Shown piece after piece: positions 16,508 through 64,000 of a DNA stretch of 64,000 bases. This stretch comes from Brachycybe producta. Lineage: Eukaryota > Arthropoda > Diplopoda > Playtdesmida > Andrognathidae. The stretch spans positions 3,103,501 through 3,167,500 of the forward strand of contig JAUPFP010000014.1 in the NCBI GenBank assembly GCA_036925085.1. Direction: 5' to 3'. Under the pieces are notes generated by a model that worked only from the letters and a program-made list of their open reading frames with translations, was not told the origin of the DNA and did no database searches. The stretch's first letter is position 1; each line of letters opens with the position of its first letter. The position numbers were made by a program, and so were the translations under genes.

Positions 16508-16610
16508 CCCTAATACGTTGTACACACATGAGTTAAATGAATTCAAATTAAATGTGTTTAGGGTGAATTATACGGAATCCAGTTAAGGACATTAACCAAA
16601 TAAAAATTCA
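16508..16610 (+). repeat. PalI left end
   Basis: TACGTTGTACACACATGAGT through GAATTATACGGAATCCAG and AATTCACTTTATTATTAA matches the left arm of the large palindrome at 42755-43510. No matching right arm follows; the 16.6-kb minisatellite begins at once. Confidence 0.75.
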
Positions 16611-16628
16611 CTTTATTATTAATATTCT

Positions 16629-17150
16629 AAAAACCGAGAAAAATCGGAAAAAAACGAGAAAAATCGTAAAAAAAAACGAGAAAAATCGGAAAAAAAACGA
16701 GAAAAATCGGAAAAAAAACGAGAAAAATCGGAAAAAAACGAGAAAAATCGGAAAAAAACGAGAAAAATCGGAAAAAAACCGAGAAAAATCGAAAAAAAAA
16801 AACCGAGGAAAATCGAAAAAAAAACCGAGAAAAATCGAAAAAAAAAACCGAGAAAAATCGAAAAAAAAAACCGAGAAAAATCGAAAAAAAAAACCGAGAA
16901 AAATCGAAAAAAAAACCGAGAAAAATCGAAAAAAAAAAACGAGAAAAATCGGGGGAAAAAACCGAGAAAAATCGGGAAAAAAACCGAGAAAAATCGGGAA
17001 AAAAACCGAGAAAAATCGGGAAAAAAACCGAGAAAAATCGGGAAAAAAACCGAGAAAAATCGGAAAAAAAACCGAGAAAAATCGGAAAAAAACCGAGAAA
17101 AATCGGAAAAAAACCGAGAAAAATCGGAAAAAAACCGAGAAAAAAATCGA
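16629..17150. repeat. 19-21-bp minisatellite, about 25 copies
   Basis: The unit is CGAGAAAAATCGGAAAAAA, with a sub-block in which CGG becomes CGA (about 16785-16930) and another with CGGGAAAA (about 16945-17060). Blocks of like variants show local expansion. The 215-codon Phe-rich minus-strand frame is an artefact of the unit. Confidence 0.9.
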
Positions 17151-17990
17151 AAAAAAATCTTTAAAAAACGAGAAAAACCCGAGAAAATTCGAGAAAAATA
17201 AAAAAACGAGCATATTCGGGAAAAAAACCCGAGAAAAATCGAAAAAAAACAACAAGAAAAATCGAAATATCGAGGAAAAAAAAGGAATATTCGATTTTTT
17301 TGGTCTTTTGATTTCTGTCCATTTTTCGATATATCAAGTAAGATTTTTTTGAAAAAAAAAAAAAACTATCGTACGATATTTTAAAATATCGATATATCGA
17401 AATTTTTGCCAGCCCTAAAATGTTTCATTCAAACCGTAAAATGTAAATTGAAATAGAAAAAAAGGTATGAAAATCAGTGACTGGATCCCATCATCCCCAA
17501 CTTTTGAAATCGTAAAAAGACAAGTGTTTTTTTCGAAGGAAGATTTCAATGTAAAAAAAATTGCGTTCGTTGACCAATAAGGTCCACAAAAAATACGGCA
17601 GAACAGGAAAAACACCGTCAAAATGTAATCATCATATTGGCTTCTTTTTCGTCCATGTCCCAAAAAAACATTCAATTTTCTGTTATTTTTAAAAAAAAAA
17701 AAAAAAAAGGTTTGAAGGAATCCTTCAAAAAAAAAAATAATTCCGGGTTTTTTTTTTCTGGTCAAAACTTGAAAAGAGAAGAAGAAAATCAAATAATTTC
17801 TGACCAAGTTGCATAAATCTAAACCATTTCAAACATTTACGTCAAAAACAGCTTCCAAAACATTTTCATCAGAAAAATATGTAAAGAAAAAGGAAAATAT
17901 ATTTATACAGAGTGAGTGAGAGTAACTAACAAACGAACCCCAGTTCGGTTCCGAGTTTATGAAAATAAATTTCGCGAAAAATCTCTACCC
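17151..17990. other. Degenerate AT-rich flank of the minisatellite
   Basis: Up to about 17410 the sequence is built from TCGAAATATCG and ATATCGATATATCG pieces, like those at the right end of the 40.7-kb array. From 17410 to 17990 no element or gene is recognised. Confidence 0.5.
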
Positions 17991-25098: not shown

Positions 25099-25130
<32 letters not shown>

Positions 25131-35640: not shown

Positions 35641-37388
35641 TATTGTAAACTTCCAGGTGGAGTTTCTTTTTCTCCCATAAATACCTAATTTTTTTTCAAA
35701 AAAAAAAAACCTTCAAAAAACCTACTTTTTTCCTGAAAAAAAAAACCTGAAAGAGAGAGAGAGAGAGATGATGATGATAAAAGTAAAATAAAACAAAGAT
35801 GCTTGAAGGGAATACAAATTATTCTACTGCCAAATTACATTGATAACACCTACCACCAACCACCACTTTGTAACTGATTAAATAAAACAAAAGTAGAACA
35901 ATAGGAACCTCTCTCATTCTCTCTCTCCCTCTCTCTCTCTTTCAGTCTCTCTCTCTACTTTTCAGTCTCTCTCTCTCTCTCTTTCAGTCTCTCTCTCTCA
36001 TTCTCCCTTTCATTCTCTCTCTACTTTTCAGTCTCTCTCATTCTCTCTTTCAGTCTCTCTATTTCATTCCCCCCTCTCTCTCTCTCTCTCTTTCATTCTC
36101 TCTCTAGAGAATGAATGATTCCTAAAGTCAGTAATATGCTGTAAAATACAACTGGACGTTTCATGCATATTAATGACCACTACTTCTCTCTCTCTCTCTC
36201 TCACTCTTTCTATTATTATTATTATTAAATTCAATCAACACCATAAAATGTGTATTGAAAGCCAGAAAAAAAAATTATTAACTTCAAAATTTCTCTCTCT
36301 CTCTCTTTGAAGACATTTTTTCTATTCAAACTTTTACAACAAAAAACCCAGCTGCCAAAAAAAAAAAAAAAAAACCAACCCCCTGTTGAGTAGAGCAAAA
36401 AACATCCCACCCCAAACATCTGGAGAAACCGGAAAAAGACAACAGGGGGCGCCACAAACCCTCCTCCTCGTCTTTTCTTTTTAAAAACCTGATTTGTATC
36501 TGTTTAAAAAATTGAGGAATTTTTCTCACTTTGATGTCTAAAATATGTACCTAAATTAAAACACATTTCTCTCTCTCTCTCTCTCTCTCTTTCCCCCCTT
36601 AAAACACACTCTTGTAATCATTTACAAATTCAACTTGCAACACTGATAAGAAAAAATGGTACCCAAAGGACAAAAAATGTCACTCAAAAACAAAACTCAA
36701 CACCAATTTAAGAAAAATAGGTTGGAGAGAGGGAGGGGGTCACAGTTGCCCACAAAAACCCCATTGAAGCGACCCACTCCTCCCTCTCCTCGAAGTGACC
36801 CACCCACTGAGACCCAACCCCATTTGCAATAAACATCAAGGTCAAATAAAACTTCATTGGTCCATTTAACTTTTGTTTTTTCAAGATGGCCTTCGTTAAT
36901 CATTTTCTGAGGCCCTCCTTCCTTTTTTTTTTTACAAAAAACATACCCTGGACCACTTTTTTTTTTTTGCTTTCTGGTTCTTCTTGTGTTTCTCTTACCC
37001 CATAATTAGAAGAAATTTGTGAAACAACAGTTTTCGGGTTTTTTTTTAAAGATTTTTGTTGGTTGTTCTCTTATTTGTTGATGCCTTCTGGAGATTTTTC
37101 TCTTTTGTTTGAAAACCAGTTAGGAATTTTATTTAAGGGAAAGGGGGGGTCCCTCTTCCTCGAGGTAAAGTAACCCCCCACCCATTTCTACCCCACCTCT
37201 CAGTCAAATCTAAATGGTTAACTGTCTATACCAGGTAGTAGTTAACATTCATCACTGTTAACCATGATCAATTACCTGTAGAGCACAATAGACATGTTTC
37301 GCAACGCAAACAAGTGAATCCGCTGCTATCGAGAGTGGTTACGACTCTCCTCCGAGAAAATAAACAGTACGAAAGATGGAGCTTTTAC
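35641..37388. other. Non-coding, CT microsatellites; probable intron of the LMO gene
   Basis: (CT)n-rich tracts at about 35905-36110, 36185-36205, 36290-36308 and 36565-36592. No second LIM-domain exon is recognisable on the minus strand. By position this is intron sequence downstream of the exon at 37389-37798. Confidence 0.55.
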
Positions 37389-37798
37389 CTTATGTAGTCG
37401 TTCTTGCAGAGTATCATTCCGGCCCTCGTAAAACAAGAGCTTCCGATGTCCGCCAAAGTGGCACCGCAACACGAACACTTGAGACAAGCCGTGTGCCAAT
37501 ATCCATCCAAGGCATGCAACAGAAAACGGTCGATGATCTTTCCACCGCAACCGGCACAGAATCGAACATGTCCACCGTTCAGTGGTACACCTATTATCCC
37601 ACCACCTCCACCTCCTCCGCTTCCACCGTTCCCACCTCCGTTACCATTACCACCTCCTCCGACACTTCCCGGTCCACCAAGAGGCGTACCAGGACCGGAT
37701 CCAGGAGGTGGTGGTCCTCCTCCATTTGCCATGCCCGCGTGCATCAGAGGCCCGTGGCCGTGCCCCGTAATTAGGGCTTCGGCCGGGTTATGGTTCAT
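37389..37798 (-). CDS. LMO4: LIM-only protein, LMO4-type, first coding exon (partial gene)
   Basis: LMO proteins are nuclear adaptors of two LIM zinc-binding domains that bridge LDB/CLIM and transcription factors. This exon encodes 136 complete residues. Residues 1-78 are Gly/Pro-rich with long Gly runs. LIM1 follows, with Cys81, Cys84, His102, Cys105, Cys108, Cys111, Cys131 and Asp134, the full set of ligands. CAGCGGKI, DRFLL, YWH, CLKCSCC, DIG, GMILC and NDYI match vertebrate LMO4 better than LMO1-3. The start is the first ATG after an in-frame TAA near 37860. The exon ends AAG before GTAAAAGC, splitting the Arg codon (phase 2). The vertebrate N-terminal tail is about 22 residues, so this one is expanded. 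LIM2 should lie on a lower-coordinate exon that I did not find. Family assignment is firm; paralogue assignment is by motif memory. Confidence 0.9.
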
Positions 37799-38007
37799 GC
37801 CTCCGCCGCGGCGATTTTTTTTCTTCGTCGTACCGATTGTGGGGCCGAAACGAACAATTTAGAAAAATTAAAATCCTCTCGTTAAAGAGAGAGATATACA
37901 AATCACGCGCACGTTTACCTTGCACGCGCACACACACACACACCCGGATAACGGAGAGAGGGAGAGGGTAAACCAAAAAAAAAATTCCGGAACCGCGTAC
38001 GATGATT

Positions 38008-57762: not shown

Positions 57763-58183
57763 AAATATATGCTGATCGAATGATAGAATGACAAAAAATT
57801 GGTAAGTGCGGTTCTATTTTTAAAAACTATTTCAAAATCGCGAATTTCTAACTTTTATGTTAAACTCCATTGAGTACGCGCGCTCATAAGCAAAAAAAAA
57901 CATCCATTAAAATGTCGATAAAAATACGTAAAAATAATTTTTAAAAAACCACAATTAAACCACAGTGAAACCAACACATTGGCGCACGTGCTGAATTTTT
58001 TTCTGGTTTTTTAAAATTATTTCTACGAGCATTTTAATGGGTGTTTTTTTTTTTCTTATTTTGCGTACTCAATGGAGTTTAAACATAAGAGTTAAAAATT
58101 CGCGATTTTGAAATAGTTTTTTTAAAAATAGAAACACACTTTCAAATTTTATGTCATTATATCACTCAATCAGCATATATATT
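57763..58183. repeat. ~420-bp palindrome abutting the LTR element
   Basis: AAATATATGCTGATCGAATG, AAAACTATTTCAAAATCGCG and AACTCCATTGAGTACGCG are mirrored by TGCGTACTCAATGGAGTTTA, CGCGATTTTGAAATAGTTTT and CACTCAATCAGCATATATAT. The inner part has AATGTCGATAAAAATACG and a CCACAATTAAACCACAG loop. The right arm ends where the LTR appears to start. Confidence 0.75.
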
Positions 58184-59081
58184 GAAACGATACGTCCAGG
58201 AGCGATCCTGGCTCGTTTAGTTATTTTTGGATCGTTTGTTTATTTTTAGAGTGGCCTGGAACTTTGTCAACCCTCTGTACTCACGTACAGAGGATTGACC
58301 CAGTTCCATCAGCTGATGACGATGCCAATATCCTGTCTTGGGTCTTGGGTCCCTTTTTCCTCCCAGTCCCACCCCTTAATACAAAGAGATCGACTTGATA
58401 AGCCTCAGCATTGGGTCTATGGGGTGAAAACTTTCTTTTGTAATTTTGTTTTGATTACGATGAATCACTTGTCTATATTTTAGTGACCACTGGTCAATCA
58501 TGTTGATTGGCCAGTTTGGTTTTTAAGTTTGATTTTGCCCAATCAGAGAATACTGAGAAAGTGTTCTCAGTATCCTCTTTTTGGGTATAAATAACCATGT
58601 ATTTTTGTGTAAAAGAGACTTGAAGAAGCAGTCTCGAAAGCAATTATTTGGACACAGACATTATGCCCAAATTTGCCTAGAGATGATGAGATGTAAATAA
58701 ACTGGAAATTATAGTTAAAAAGTTGTTGAAGTTATTTTTATCTTTTAAAAACAAAACGAAGGACTTCAACATTTTGTCATCTAGCACTGTCAACCCAGGT
58801 GTAAACCTGGCTCTCCAGTACTAGATGAGACTTCTGAAGACAGCACGATCAACCAGCTTTTTACGGGCGAAAGCCCGGGGAGTAGCAGACAACAAAAGAT
58901 CCTTAAAACTGTAAAGGTTCTTGAAAGAGGAACTTGTGAGGAAACGTATGGGACTAATTTGTTCCCTTCCTCCCGAACCATAATAGAATTAGTGGCCTAG
59001 CCAACCACTTTCCGATCGCCCGAAAGAGCGCTACGATACTTTTTGATAATTCTATTAGGCCCCTGAATGTGGTTCGTTACA
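58183..59081 (+). repeat. Probable 5' LTR
   Basis: It begins TGAAACGATACGTCC and ends GTGGTTCGTTACA, so TG and CA limits with a loose inverted match (TGNAACGA). Inside are a TATA box (TATAAAT, 58586-58592) and a polyadenylation signal (AATAAA, 58696-58701) about 110 bp apart, giving a U3, R and U5 order. The right end is well supported by the primer site. The left end is an inference; a start near 58266 (TGTCAACCCTCTG) is an alternative. Confidence 0.5.
58586..58592 (+). promoter_or_regulatory. TATA box of the LTR promoter
   Basis: GGGTATAAATAACC is a strong TATA context, with a CCAATCAGAG (CCAAT-type) site about 50 bp upstream. Transcription would start near 58615. Confidence 0.6.
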
Positions 59082-59085
59082 AATT

Positions 59086-59104
59086 TGGTGGAGGCGCCGG
59101 GTAG
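59086..59104 (+). other. Primer-binding site of the LTR element
   Basis: TGGTGGAGGCGCCGGGTAG begins with TGG, the complement of the tRNA CCA tail, 4 bp after the LTR end. The tRNA species cannot be named with confidence from the sequence alone. Confidence 0.7.
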
Positions 59105-59182
59105 TTGAATACCTTGTTACTCCATAAGCTACAAAGATCGTGTTGAAAAGCACGCGGCATAGAGAAAACATCGACGTCAGAA

Positions 59183-60604
59183 ATGACCAGTCTACAGAAA
59201 CTACTCAAGGACTTGAGGGATCTCGAGAGACTGAGGGAGGAAAGACGTCGAAAGAAGAAGACTGCCGCGTTGAAGAAGATCGTGAAGAGGCAACGTACTC
59301 AACTGGAGGAGGCCAAGGACGAAGCTAATGTACTTCCACCGACTCCTGTTGCTGTCAAGCCTGAGGTACAGTCCAACGATGGAAGCAAGACGCCAGAACA
59401 CGCCGCCATTGCCGACATCATTGGGAAACTGTCTAAAGAGAAACAAGATGAGTTGGTTCGTCAGATTATGGGCGACGAACGGAGCAGAGCGGGCTCAATC
59501 AACACTGAATTGGAATCGATTGAACCCGGGCAAAAGCCCGGTCCGGATGAAACTACCAAATGGACACCGGACCTGGGACCTACGCCATACTCTGAGAGAA
59601 ATTCGTTACATCCTCTGCAGGGATTCTCGAAGTACGACGGTGATGACAACATCCTCCTCTACATAGAAGAATTTGAAGACATCGCTACGGCGCACGACTG
59701 GAACTCCCTGCAGAGATGCAGGCACTTCGCAGGGCTCTTGAGGAAGCGTGCAATCAAATGGCTCGCACACTTCCGCTCTGCTTATGAGGGAAAAGAGATT
59801 ACGTGGACGGCCATGAAGGAGGGAATCATTGCTGAATTCCTCCTGCCTGACCAGAAGGTCCGCATGAGTCGAGAATTGGTGGAAAGGCGTCAGCAAGACC
59901 ATGAAACTTTCAGGGTCTATGCTGAAAAATACGCCGAGATGTATCGAAGAATTCATCCACATGACGATGAATCGTTGCTGATAGCTACGCTCCGAAAGAG
60001 TCTGCTACCAGCACTAAGAAAACATTTGTATGGAGCACCAAAAGATCATTACCATGAGTTTGTGCGCTTCAGTACTCAAACTGAAGGGGAACTGGTGGAT
60101 GAGAGAGAGTTGGTTTACAAAACATCGGCTGGGACTACAACCAAAGCGGGCGTAAGCCAGCCGAATCAAGGAAGTCAACCAAAACAGCAGAGTCAACCTA
60201 GAACTTCAAGCGGACAAGACAAGATGTCGAACCCGCCTGAAAAGGCTTACCAGGAATCGAAACAGACAAATGAGCATCAAAACAAGCAGAGGGCTCCTTG
60301 GCGAAATCAATACCAAGGGCCGCTCACCTGTTACCGATGTGGGGAGGCGGGCCACATTGCACGTGCTTGCCCAAACCCCGGAAAACCAAAGACTGAACAA
60401 AGGAACGTTCCAACGGCAACATCGACCACTGTAAGCAGGATCGACGAACCGTTGGCAACGACGGCAACGAAGTTCTCAAATACTGTTGAGGTTTTTGAAA
60501 CTCACGTCCTGCCGAATGGTATGAGAATGGTGCCTGTCGATATCAATGGAGTGACACACTATTTTCATGAGGAAAATCTAACAGAAGAGGCTTTAAACTG
60601 CTAA
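59183..60604 (+). CDS. gag: Gag polyprotein of the LTR element
   Basis: 473 codons. Residues 1-50 are a charged, helix-prone segment (KLLKDLRDLERLREERRRKK). Residues ~130-320 match the retrotransposon gag fold in style: GFSKYDGDDN, YIEEFEDIATAHDWN, AIKWLAHF and FRVYAEKYAEMYRRIHP. A Gln/Ser-rich linker follows, then one CCHC zinc knuckle (Cys383, Cys386, His391, Cys396) for RNA binding. It assembles the particle in such elements. It starts about 80 bp after the primer site at the first ATG and ends 23 bp before the next ORF, which is in another frame. The frame is open throughout. Ty3-like assignment rests on layout and gag style. Confidence 0.9.
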   Translation: MTSLQKLLKDLRDLERLREERRRKKKTAALKKIVKRQRTQLEEAKDEANVLPPTPVAVKPEVQSNDGSKTPEHAAIADIIGKLSKEKQDELVRQIMGDERSRAGSINTELESIEPGQKPGPDETTKWTPDLGPTPYSERNSLHPLQGFSKYDGDDNILLYIEEFEDIATAHDWNSLQRCRHFAGLLRKRAIKWLAHFRSAYEGKEITWTAMKEGIIAEFLLPDQKVRMSRELVERRQQDHETFRVYAEKYAEMYRRIHPHDDESLLIATLRKSLLPALRKHLYGAPKDHYHEFVRFSTQTEGELVDERELVYKTSAGTTTKAGVSQPNQGSQPKQQSQPRTSSGQDKMSNPPEKAYQESKQTNEHQNKQRAPWRNQYQGPLTCYRCGEAGHIARACPNPGKPKTEQRNVPTATSTTVSRIDEPLATTATKFSNTVEVFETHVLPNGMRMVPVDINGVTHYFHEENLTEEALNC

Positions 60605-60627
60605 GGGCGCCACTCAGCCCCAAAGTA

Positions 60628-63600
60628 GTGATGCCCGAAGTAGTTGTGAATAAGGAAGAAGAAAACGATGTCATTTTGGAGAGACTTCAAGAGGTTCAGG
60701 CTGCTGATCAACAAGAGGAAATTTCTGAGCAACCAAGGGTTATGTGCATCAAGGTCCGACAGGGAGGAAACAAGGCGGAGTCCAAAGGTCTGTGTCAATG
60801 GAAACGACAGCTAGAGACGTCCGAAAAATCCACAGCCCTGTGCCAAGATGATCGACATACGGCGGAAGCAACGATACAAAGGAGTTGGGGCACAGCAGAA
60901 CAAGAAGAATCAACAAGGCTGACATCTGGGAGAGTTGCAGTTGGAATCCGAAGTCAAACCATCCAAGGGGAAGGTCAACTAAAGAAACCACTGCAAAGTG
61001 GGAAAGCCAAGATGGATTTCGAGGTTAAACCCATGGTGAAGAAAATGCAGGTTGAAGCGAAATTTGGAGTAACTTCACCTGAAAAGGGTAACTTTGTGAG
61101 TGAAGGGTTTCAGACTATTTCTGGGAAAGGTCAGCAAACAGTGCCACTGCAAAGTGAGTTTACTATGACATCCAAAACGGATATCGTACCAAAACTCGGT
61201 GATGATCAGGTGATGGCGAAATTTGGAGTACCCATCCCTGTGGAAAATGATCAGGTGATGGCGAAATTTGGAGTACCCATCCCTGTGGAAAAAGATCAGG
61301 TGATGGCGAAATTTGGAGTACCCATCCCTGTGGAACATGATCAGGTGATGGCGAAATTTGGAGTACCCATCCCTGTGGAGCAGGTGGCGGTGAAATCTGG
61401 AGTAACCACCCCTGTGAAAATTGGAAATGAGATGACGGTGAAATTTGGAGTAACCGCCATTGAGAAAAAAGAGTTTCAAGAAGAAACTGTGGATCTTCGA
61501 AGGAGAGGACTAATCTCAGTCAGGATTGACCGAAATAATCCTCATGAAGATAAGAGTAAAGAAGGCCTAGCTGAAATCACTGTCGACAAACAATCCAGTG
61601 AAATTTCGGAAGAAACTTCAGTGAAAAAGGAAAGAGAGGAAACACATGGGATGGCCAAAAATGTCTCTAAGAAAGAGACATCTACAGCTTCCCGTGTGCA
61701 GACACGTGTAGGACCTGGAATAGATGATAGAAAGCATCATTCAGGAGTGGGGAAAAAGAAATCCAGCGCTAAAACCATCTTAAAAGATGAATTAACGTCT
61801 GAATTGGATGTAGAAACGGCAAAAATTCAAATTTGCCGCTATACGGAGCGCCGCCTAGTGAGGAAAAAAGAGGAGAGAGAATTTTCTAAGGAGAAAAGCT
61901 CCTCCCACTTCCGGCCGGAAATTGAAAGTGAGAGCCCCACAGGATCACGTGAGAAGACGACCGCCATTTTTGATGCCACTTCGAATCTTCATTCTGCAAA
62001 GAATAGTCGCGGTTTGAATTTTGTCAAAGAAAAAAAAGTGTCAGCGTTTAATTTGGATAAATTTGAAAAGAGGATGGCTGAACCTAATGGCAGTGGAAAG
62101 TCTGGAAGTGAGGAGATGTTTGAAGTGGAGCAGTTTTTGGAAGCCGGTGAAATGACACCGGAGTGGTTGAGGCTGCTTTTTGGAGAAGAGGATGACGACA
62201 ACGCCATCGCTGCAGGGGTTTCCTCCGGCAGCAATGCCGCGCCTTCGATGCCTTCTACGGAAAAAGCCTCAGGATCTGCTCAAACGAAAAAACGGAAACA
62301 ACCCGAGGGTGAGCCAACTAATTTCGTTCCTCTTGTTCATTCTCCTCCGGAGCGACGCCGAAATGTCAATCCGGAGCCAGATACTGTATATGATGGGCCA
62401 GCAAGGGATCCTAAGTTGCAGTTCCCAAGACCCCCTGAGGAGATGGATACTCCTCCAGGTAGCCTCTTGGATGGATGTCTGCCTGCAGAGATGGGAGGAT
62501 CCAGAAGAAGCGGCCGAACGAAAGGCGAAAGAAATGCGGACAAACTGGCCATGAAAGAATGGGTCGATGGCCAGAATCGAGAATTGGCAGCTCGAGGGCG
62601 ATCTCCGATAAGAGTTCCGGAGGTAGGAGAGACGTTAACGAAAAGGAAATCGTCAAGGGAGGTCTCTCCGTCCAACAGCTGGGTCACCGTGGACCAGCCA
62701 ATCGTCCGTGGGTATGTTCACCGGCCTAATAAACCTCTTAACTTACCCACAGCAATGGAGAAGGTCTCCATTTCCTCAAAAGTCGTGGTGCCTACGAGAG
62801 ACACTCGCCCGCCTGCGGCGAGCAATCCCGCTAGGGCCCAGCGAGATAAATTCGTCAGTGAGAGGCCTACGGATCCCAGACGCCAGCCAGATGTCGTCAG
62901 GAGCCGACCTCATGAGGAAACAAGAAGGGAAACGAGATACGAGCAGCCAAGGATCGAGACATCCAGAAGCCATTCAGGTCGTCATCCTCACATCCCGGGA
63001 CAACCCCGGAAAGGACAAGGCGCCACAGAGAGGAGGAGGCAGCGACGAGATGCGATCTTCGAGGGAGAACGTGGTCATCCCAGCAAAGCAACGTCTGGAC
63101 CAGCCACGGGAGCGATCCCGAAGATCTCACCACCGCCGCCCCCGCAACAATGGCCGAAAGGAACACTGGACATGTCCGATGGGAAGTTGTCCAACCGGCA
63201 ACAGTTTCGGCTGTTGCGTAACGGTTTGGTATCTTTTAGTCGTCGTTGGGGCAGAAATTCATTCCGATATTTAGGTTTCTTCCATAGCAACGATGGGATC
63301 AAGGAAGACAGAATCCGTCCGCGATTGGACAGGCCATGGACAGCGGTGATCATCCAGGTGTTGGATCACTGGCCCGTCGTTGTACTTCACAACAACGCCG
63401 AACCAGGGACCCTTCAGCTAGTATATCCACAACCATGGGATAAATCAACGTGCGGCATTCTGGAGGTGGTTATCTCGTCGATGGTGGCCACCTTGATTCC
63501 GAGCAGCAGAGGACATAGGAACGTCGTCCACAACCGATTGACCGAGCAGGATGGAAACGCTCACCTGGCTACACAGCAGCTTGACTTTATGGAGTCCATC

Positions 63601-63726
63601 GTTTTGGGAGCAATCCCACGGTCTCAAGTCGTCCCGCTGCGTATGCTGGAAGACCTGAACATCTTGACAACGGAGGCAGAACCAGGAGCCAGGGACCAAC
63701 AGGGCCATCTGGAACCGGATCATTAG
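60628..63726 (+). CDS. Second ORF of the LTR element, unknown function
   Basis: 1032 codons with no recognised domain. The N-terminal third is charged (Lys, Glu, Gln). Residues 193-252 are four 15-residue tandem repeats (DQVMAKFGVPIPVE plus one), with weaker relatives on both sides. Then come a Lys/Glu-rich stretch, an acidic patch (LLFGEEDDDN, near 525), KKRKQPEGE resembling a nuclear localisation signal, a long Arg/Pro-rich part and PPPPPQQ near 855. The last ~160 residues look more folded (SFSRRWGRNSFRYLGFF, AVIIQVLDHWPVVVLHN). There is no DTG protease, YxDD polymerase or integrase motif and no clear membrane segment. It occupies the place of pol. Expression might use reinitiation or splicing, as other elements of this kind do. 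It may be a captured or newly evolved gene. Confidence 0.75.
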   Translation: MMPEVVVNKEEENDVILERLQEVQAADQQEEISEQPRVMCIKVRQGGNKAESKGLCQWKRQLETSEKSTALCQDDRHTAEATIQRSWGTAEQEESTRLTSGRVAVGIRSQTIQGEGQLKKPLQSGKAKMDFEVKPMVKKMQVEAKFGVTSPEKGNFVSEGFQTISGKGQQTVPLQSEFTMTSKTDIVPKLGDDQVMAKFGVPIPVENDQVMAKFGVPIPVEKDQVMAKFGVPIPVEHDQVMAKFGVPIPVEQVAVKSGVTTPVKIGNEMTVKFGVTAIEKKEFQEETVDLRRRGLISVRIDRNNPHEDKSKEGLAEITVDKQSSEISEETSVKKEREETHGMAKNVSKKETSTASRVQTRVGPGIDDRKHHSGVGKKKSSAKTILKDELTSELDVETAKIQICRYTERRLVRKKEEREFSKEKSSSHFRPEIESESPTGSREKTTAIFDATSNLHSAKNSRGLNFVKEKKVSAFNLDKFEKRMAEPNGSGKSGSEEMFEVEQFLEAGEMTPEWLRLLFGEEDDDNAIAAGVSSGSNAAPSMPSTEKASGSAQTKKRKQPEGEPTNFVPLVHSPPERRRNVNPEPDTVYDGPARDPKLQFPRPPEEMDTPPGSLLDGCLPAEMGGSRRSGRTKGERNADKLAMKEWVDGQNRELAARGRSPIRVPEVGETLTKRKSSREVSPSNSWVTVDQPIVRGYVHRPNKPLNLPTAMEKVSISSKVVVPTRDTRPPAASNPARAQRDKFVSERPTDPRRQPDVVRSRPHEETRRETRYEQPRIETSRSHSGRHPHIPGQPRKGQGATERRRQRRDAIFEGERGHPSKATSGPATGAIPKISPPPPPQQWPKGTLDMSDGKLSNRQQFRLLRNGLVSFSRRWGRNSFRYLGFFHSNDGIKEDRIRPRLDRPWTAVIIQVLDHWPVVVLHNNAEPGTLQLVYPQPWDKSTCGILEVVISSMVATLIPSSRGHRNVVHNRLTEQDGNAHLATQQLDFMESIVLGAIPRSQVVPLRMLEDLNILTTEAEPGARDQQGHLEPDH
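61204..61383 (+). repeat. 45-bp tandem repeat inside the second ORF, four copies
   Basis: GATCAGGTGATGGCGAAATT recurs at 61204, 61249, 61294 and 61339. The period of 45 keeps the frame. Copies are nearly identical; the only visible codon differences are at the junction residue (Asn, Lys, His). Confidence 0.95.
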
Positions 63727-63989
63727 AAACGACCAGGAACGACAACGGATTGACGTGGACCAGTTCCGACCCACGCCGAAGAAACCGGAGGAACGGGATG
63801 CAGCGAGGAAGCGTATCATTTCATTTATTGATAAATATTTTTAATTTTCGTTTTCTTGAGGGTTAAAAAGGGTTTTTAACTTGGGTATTTTAGTCAAAAT
63901 TGTGGTCAAAAAAGGGTTAATTTAATGAACAAAATTATTTCTCTTTTAAGCGTTTTTTTTATTATTTAGTCAGATCTGCCTTAAAGATT

Positions 63990-64000
63990 AAAGAGGGGGG
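63990..64000 (+). other. Polypurine tract at the window edge
   Basis: AAAGAGGGGGG closes the window. In LTR elements such a tract lies directly before the 3' LTR and primes plus-strand synthesis. The placement fits an LTR starting at the next bases. Confidence 0.55.

Follow-up and report, generated by a model that had tools for sequence, protein, structure and literature searches.

A putative LTR retrotransposon of Brachycybe producta with a long second open reading frame behind gag and no detectable pol in the window

Most known non-autonomous LTR elements are deleted copies or gag-only elements. The TR-GAG elements are defined as non-autonomous and containing gag only, and in PEG10 the second frame is a remnant of the protease. 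Autonomous Ty3/gypsy elements that use a -1 frameshift have a pol of the PR-RT-RH-IN type. Additional coding sequences within LTR elements have been described in several systems, given here as they appear in excerpts of the cited sources. Bs1 of maize contains foreign coding sequence (PMC11963269). Cer1 of C. elegans retains pol and has a large ORF without known relatives, CERV, whose C-terminal half is encoded between pol and the 3' LTR and which is produced from a spliced mRNA (PMC10309623). LTR elements of bdelloid rotifers keep both gag and pol and have acquired a captured ORF3 in addition to them (PMC5408684). The Ty3/gypsy-derived gag of PEG10 frameshifts into a second frame (PMC5009743). 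Among excerpts of the open-licence literature searched, including PMC7264820, PMC8220671 and PMC3726574, no animal LTR element was found in which gag is joined to a long ORF of unknown kind that replaces pol.

The window, which is the whole stretch of 64,000 nucleotides that was analysed, contains an element visible from 58183 to the window edge at 64000. Only the 5' LTR is inside the window, and the 3' LTR and the target duplication fall beyond its edge. The features of the element are given below; the LTR features, the primer site, gag, the open ORF2, the overlap, and the phase and sequence of the heptamer are direct observations.

58183..59081, plus strand: 5' LTR of 899 bp, TGAAACGATACG...TGGTTCGTTACA, with TG...CA ends
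58255..58312, plus strand: long hairpin in a 58-base stretch of the presumed U3 of the LTR, -31.1 kcal/mol, z -7.9
59086..59101, plus strand: primer binding site TGGTGGAGGCGCCGGG, 4 bases 3' of the LTR
59183..60604, plus strand: gag, frame open from 59147, first ATG at 59183, stop codon at 60602-60604
60571..63726, plus strand: ORF2, 1051 codons from stop to stop, first ATG at 60631
60592..60598, plus strand: slippery heptamer TTTAAAC in the phase of gag (GC T TTA AAC TGC TAA), within the overlap of gag and ORF2
60605..60636, plus strand: stem-loop, a possible frameshift stimulator, 6 bases 3' of the heptamer, -12.3 kcal/mol
61202..61379, plus strand: four near-identical in-frame 45-base repeats in ORF2 (DQVMAKFGVPIPVEx)
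62074..63726, plus strand: C-terminal half of ORF2, from the ATG at 62074, richer in G+C, P and R
63668..63844, plus strand: coding-like open stretch of 58 codons in another frame, extending past the ORF2 stop
63990..64000, plus strand: AAAGAGGGGGG, a purine run reaching the window edge and a candidate polypurine tract

With autonomous Ty3/gypsy elements of the -1 frameshift type, this element shares the LTR, the primer site, the zinc-knuckle gag and an overlap with a shift heptamer, but it has ORF2 instead of their PR-RT-RH-IN pol, of which none was found up to 64000. As far as the accounts of the following systems extend, it resembles the plant TR-GAG elements in having LTR and gag, in showing no pol up to 64000 and in a presumed need of help in trans. 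It differs from them in its animal host and in a second long ORF linked to gag; with an ORF2 of 1051 codons, gag is not its only gene. Like Bs1, it would carry foreign coding sequence within an LTR element; it differs in that no relative of ORF2 was found in Pfam or PDB, the two collections compared. With Cer1 it shares a large ORF lacking known relatives, but the position of the extra ORF is not that of Cer1, since no pol was found before ORF2. The rotifer elements likewise acquire extra ORFs but differ in the gag and pol that they keep beside ORF3. PEG10 shares the shift from gag into a second frame but is a fixed host gene.

We favor the reading, with a probability of about one half, that this is a non-autonomous LTR retrotransposon in which Pol has been replaced by an unrelated ORF2 protein fused to Gag. 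RNA starting in the LTR would be translated as Gag, and some of the ribosomes would slip back by one base on TTTAAAC, where gag ends, and continue into ORF2. The product would be a Gag-ORF2 fusion instead of Gag-Pol, and its Gag part would bring ORF2 into the particle. Reverse transcriptase, protease and integrase would be supplied in trans by a pol-bearing relative, a helper that would recognise this element's primer site and LTR ends as its own. That ORF2 has any function in this scheme is something we infer. The preliminary description of this DNA had proposed a non-autonomous, gene-carrying group of retrotransposons. The features seen fit such an element, whereas a group is beyond what one cut copy can show, and one end of one element cannot decide between a real lineage and a one-off.

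The LTR end, the primer site, gag and the large second ORF were all found where that description had placed them. The LTR carries TATAAA at 58586 and AATAAA at 58696. Its ends are imperfect inverted repeats (TGTAACGAACC, the end read backwards, vs. TGAAACGATAC at the start), and these were used to place the left edge because no second LTR is visible for comparison. The stability of the hairpin in the presumed U3 was equalled in 0 of 200 shuffles. A second very stable hairpin is present in the presumed U5 (58778-58832, z -4.8), and the structured leader at 58716-59182 folds better than 100 of 100 shuffles (z -3.6). By position and by sequence, 59086-59101 is a tRNA primer site as expected of an LTR retrotransposon; with up to 3 mismatches allowed, it is the one match in the whole window, and such a match is present in 5 of 100 shuffles. 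The primer may be tRNA-Ala, which a site of this sequence would fit. The stretch from the presumed transcript start to the gag ATG at 59183 contains seven further ATGs, which were counted against the favored reading.

Four viral contigs matched a DNA pattern made of the LTR end and the primer site. Their ORFs read as prokaryotic or phage-like and one of the matches lies inside a predicted tmRNA gene, so we took these contigs as unrelated. Next to the element, a foldback repeat of 416 bases (57765-58180) ends 2 bases upstream of the LTR. It is 79% identical to its own reverse complement over 438 columns, and short relatives of this region were found elsewhere in the window.

The gag product passed the curated Pfam cut-offs for Retrotrans_gag (6.5e-07) and for zf-CCHC (6.9e-07), and it matched Ty3_capsid (0.0011) below the cut-off of that family. 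Pfam thus finds the capsid and zinc-knuckle nucleocapsid that characterise the gag of an LTR retrotransposon, and we read the element as a gag-bearing LTR retrotransposon, probably of Ty3/gypsy-like kind; an RT, on which trees of the Ty3/gypsy clades are built, was not found in it.

ORF2 is in the -1 frame relative to gag, and the two frames overlap by 34 bases (60571-60604). This overlap with its frameshift signal is absent from the preliminary description, whose reading is possible and is sharpened by it. The sequence has the arrangement expected of a -1 frameshift site: an X XXY YYZ heptamer phased in the overlap with a stem a few bases behind it. According to excerpts of a review, 28 of the 51 animal LTR elements surveyed read pol in -1 relative to gag, and U_UUA_AAC is among the most shift-prone heptamers (PMC5009743); on this basis ORF2 occupies the slot expected for Pol. 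Judged from this arrangement, the ORF2 protein is probably produced fused to Gag, by the device that makes Gag-Pol elsewhere. An alternative is a restart of translation at the ATG at 60631, 26 bases past the gag stop. Two more heptamers of the same phase occur in gag, at 59788 and 60370, both outside the overlap. The z score of the stem-loop at 60605-60636 is -2.5 on 37 bases, -1.9 on 62 bases and -0.8 on 89 bases, and 25 of 643 tiles across the gag-ORF2 stretch are as stable. At z -0.8 the stem-loop is unremarkable in the longest fold, which counts against the favored reading.

A frameshift signal joining gag to ORF2 makes an accidental neighbourhood less likely. The copy could be broken or misjoined, with ORF2 coming from another repeat or a host gene and lying behind gag by chance; a single copy and a coding-like frame that switches near the end of ORF2 are what such an accident could leave. 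However, any in-phase heptamer appeared in the last 12 codons of gag in 1.8% of 20,000 codon shuffles, and TTTAAAC appeared there in phase in 0.025% of another 20,000. The 200-base segments flanking the joint are also alike in G+C content (0.46 and 0.48), without a break. We regard a chance joint as very unlikely.

The ORF had been described as 1032 codons long, which equals the 1031 sense codons plus stop counted from the ATG at 60631, and its openness over about 3.1 kb is far beyond chance. Across 300 base-shuffled versions of the stretch, the longest run without a stop in the three forward frames was 103 codons on average and 188 at most. The five other frames across the ORF2 stretch have 26 to 65 stops each.

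The absence of protease, polymerase and integrase motifs from this ORF, also claimed previously, was confirmed by Pfam profiles and by pattern scans. A pol domain in ORF2 would speak against the earlier reading, and the profile search for one was negative. The search covered whole ORF2, six pieces of it and the 11 further ORFs listed with 100 or more codons in this stretch, with curated cut-offs. Neither ORF2, its six pieces nor the 11 other ORFs had any match above cut-off, whether to protease, RT, RNase H, integrase or another family. Below the cut-offs, whole ORF2 matched Gal_mutarotas_3 (17.1 bits, cut-off 27), one of the six pieces matched SRP72 (15.9, cut-off 25), and the 11 other ORFs gave three matches in total (GDH_ACT2, COX8 and DUF6287). 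Scans of ORF2 with patterns for the protease, YxDD, CCHC and HHCC motifs found none. There is thus no detectable pol between the primer site and 64000.

ORF2 had no match up to E 1 among the PDB sequences. Scans of the viral_contigs and genome_contigs proteins, each with several exact peptide patterns from a single protein, found no relative; this null says little, because such scans reach close relatives only and animal genomes are absent from these collections. Single-sequence fold models had a mean pLDDT of 34.9 for whole ORF2 and 50.0 for its last 201 residues (63121-63723), where helices and strands are predicted at this low confidence. In a Foldseek search, the low-confidence model of the last 201 residues had no match at E <= 0.001 among PDB and viral models. 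Models with mean pLDDT of 50.0 and 34.9 are too poor for structure to decide on pol in ORF2.

We also considered ORF2 as an export factor resembling Rev or CERV. LRMLEDLNI fits the leucine-rich export pattern, KKRK fits a nuclear signal and ERRRQRRD is an arginine patch. Matches as good were found in 23%, 59% and 12%, respectively, of 500 ORF2 shuffles, and the candidate was rejected since motif matches at shuffle frequency are no evidence for it.

The preliminary description held that this copy has no room for pol. No pol was found up to 64000; with the 3' LTR beyond the window edge, the remainder of this claim depends on the purine run at 63990-64000 being a true polypurine tract. The run is indistinct, being one of 25 plus-strand purine runs of at least 11 bases with GGGGG in the window. 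A complete element with the order gag, ORF2, pol, in which ORF2 had been inserted between the two other genes and pol lies 3' of the window, would be compatible with this indistinct tract and with the lack of a 3' LTR before 64000. However, 156 A+T-rich bases separate 63844 from 64000, as between the last gene and the 3' LTR. The frameshift signal, moreover, leads into ORF2, so a Pol beyond the window would need another route of expression. We consider this order quite unlikely.

The coding-like stretch at 63668-63844 matched no Pfam family. At its end, at 63844, the G+C content drops from about 0.6 to 0.17-0.35. Because a coding-like frame continues past the ORF2 stop, the 3' end of ORF2 may be damaged and its frame lost in this copy, a point that weighs against the favored reading.

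The two halves of ORF2 differ in composition. K is more frequent in the first half, P and R in the second, which also has the higher G+C content. The best break in amino-acid composition is at 62329 with a log-likelihood gain of 37.1, compared to at most 25.3 in 100 shuffles; these shuffles destroy local repeats, and the break is overstated for this reason. Near 62150 the G+C content of 75-codon blocks climbs from 0.42 to 0.53. The ATG at 62074 is preceded by AAGAGG and followed by G. The break, the rise in G+C and this ATG would all be accommodated if pol had been deleted from an element of the order gag-pol-ORF3. The present ORF would then be a remnant from downstream of the frameshift site fused to the old 3' ORF, and the fused frame would have been kept by luck or selection. 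The old 3' ORF would have the position at which Cer1 encodes the C-terminal half of CERV, as described in an excerpt (PMC10309623).

Several observations weigh against such a deletion. Besides the overstatement of the break, no trace of pol was found on either side of it. Repeats and an old duplication of its own are present in the N-terminal half, which is therefore no short leftover. Finally, 1051 open codons in the frame of the frameshift demand that the frame was retained, which has a chance of one in three. We regard the deletion as somewhat unlikely.

The four 45-base repeats of ORF2 are flanked on both sides by diverged units, and the N-terminal half also contains an older internal duplication of about 52 residues. 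The duplicates have a pN/pS of 0.57 (bootstrap 0.38-0.88) over 50 aligned codons; the corresponding values of the other two frames are 0.94 (42 codons) and 1.26 (39 codons). Because the choice of a protein alignment favors low pN/pS, neutral copies of equal divergence were simulated and aligned in the same way as the real duplicates. A pN/pS as low as 0.57 was obtained in 4.3% of 1873 neutral simulations, after 127 of 2000 with fewer than 30 aligned codons had been dropped. Taken alone, the protein similarity of the two copies is unexceptional, since neutral simulation reached it in 265 of 2000 runs. When the duplicates are aligned as DNA, the best alignment contains gaps of 9, 2 and 4 bases, which are not all multiples of three. 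Both results weigh against the favored reading. The openness of ORF2 had been read in the preliminary description as a sign of present or past selection; the evidence for selection is weak and comes from this one duplication in the N-terminal half, at about 4% under neutrality.

The G+C content by codon position, a sign of coding, is similar in ORF2 (0.573/0.441/0.474) and gag (0.554/0.414/0.516). The correlation with the synonymous-codon use of gag is 0.29 in the ORF2 frame, 0.42 in the next forward frame and 0.34 in one reverse frame. It fails to pick out the ORF2 frame, and this counts against the favored reading.

A further-reaching version of the favored reading is that a Pol-less lineage loads its own ORF2 protein, which lacks known relatives, into particles by the frameshift, with ORF2 maintained by selection, and uses the polymerase of a relative. 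ORF2 would then be a self-packaging passenger gene, a proposal that we consider unlikely. The favored reading, if true, would mean that the particle slot of Pol is open to takeover by a different cargo, and it would raise the question of what benefit the protein brings to a Pol-less parasite. If other copies confirm the arrangement, the element would be a new variety of non-autonomous LTR element, with another protein in the slot of Pol.

Other sequences were noted upstream of the element. A LIM-domain exon lies on the minus strand at 37388-37858 behind a glycine-rich stretch. Its LIM domain matched Pfam at 1.2e-13, its best PDB matches are LMO4 chains (5.2e-27 to 1.2e-24), and this LMO4-like exon indicates that the host is an animal. 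It is the one host gene seen and is not diagnostic of a phylum, and a nematode host, at first suggested by base composition, was abandoned. Upstream, 73 ORFs of 75 or more codons were listed; ten of them, this exon included, were scanned with Pfam, and it alone matched above cut-off. An interspersed short repeat containing CTCCGCCCTTTTTATGACGA and TGACGTCACATGCTCCGCCC occurs in both orientations from about 1800 to 50060, with 15 to 23 copies in each of the families listed (D11, D13, D14 and D18). An array at 16567-17365 is built from units resembling AAAAACCGAGAAAAATCGG, each about 22-23 bases long, and several frames are open through it on both strands. Long G runs are frequent in the window, one of them about 31 bases long (25099-25129).
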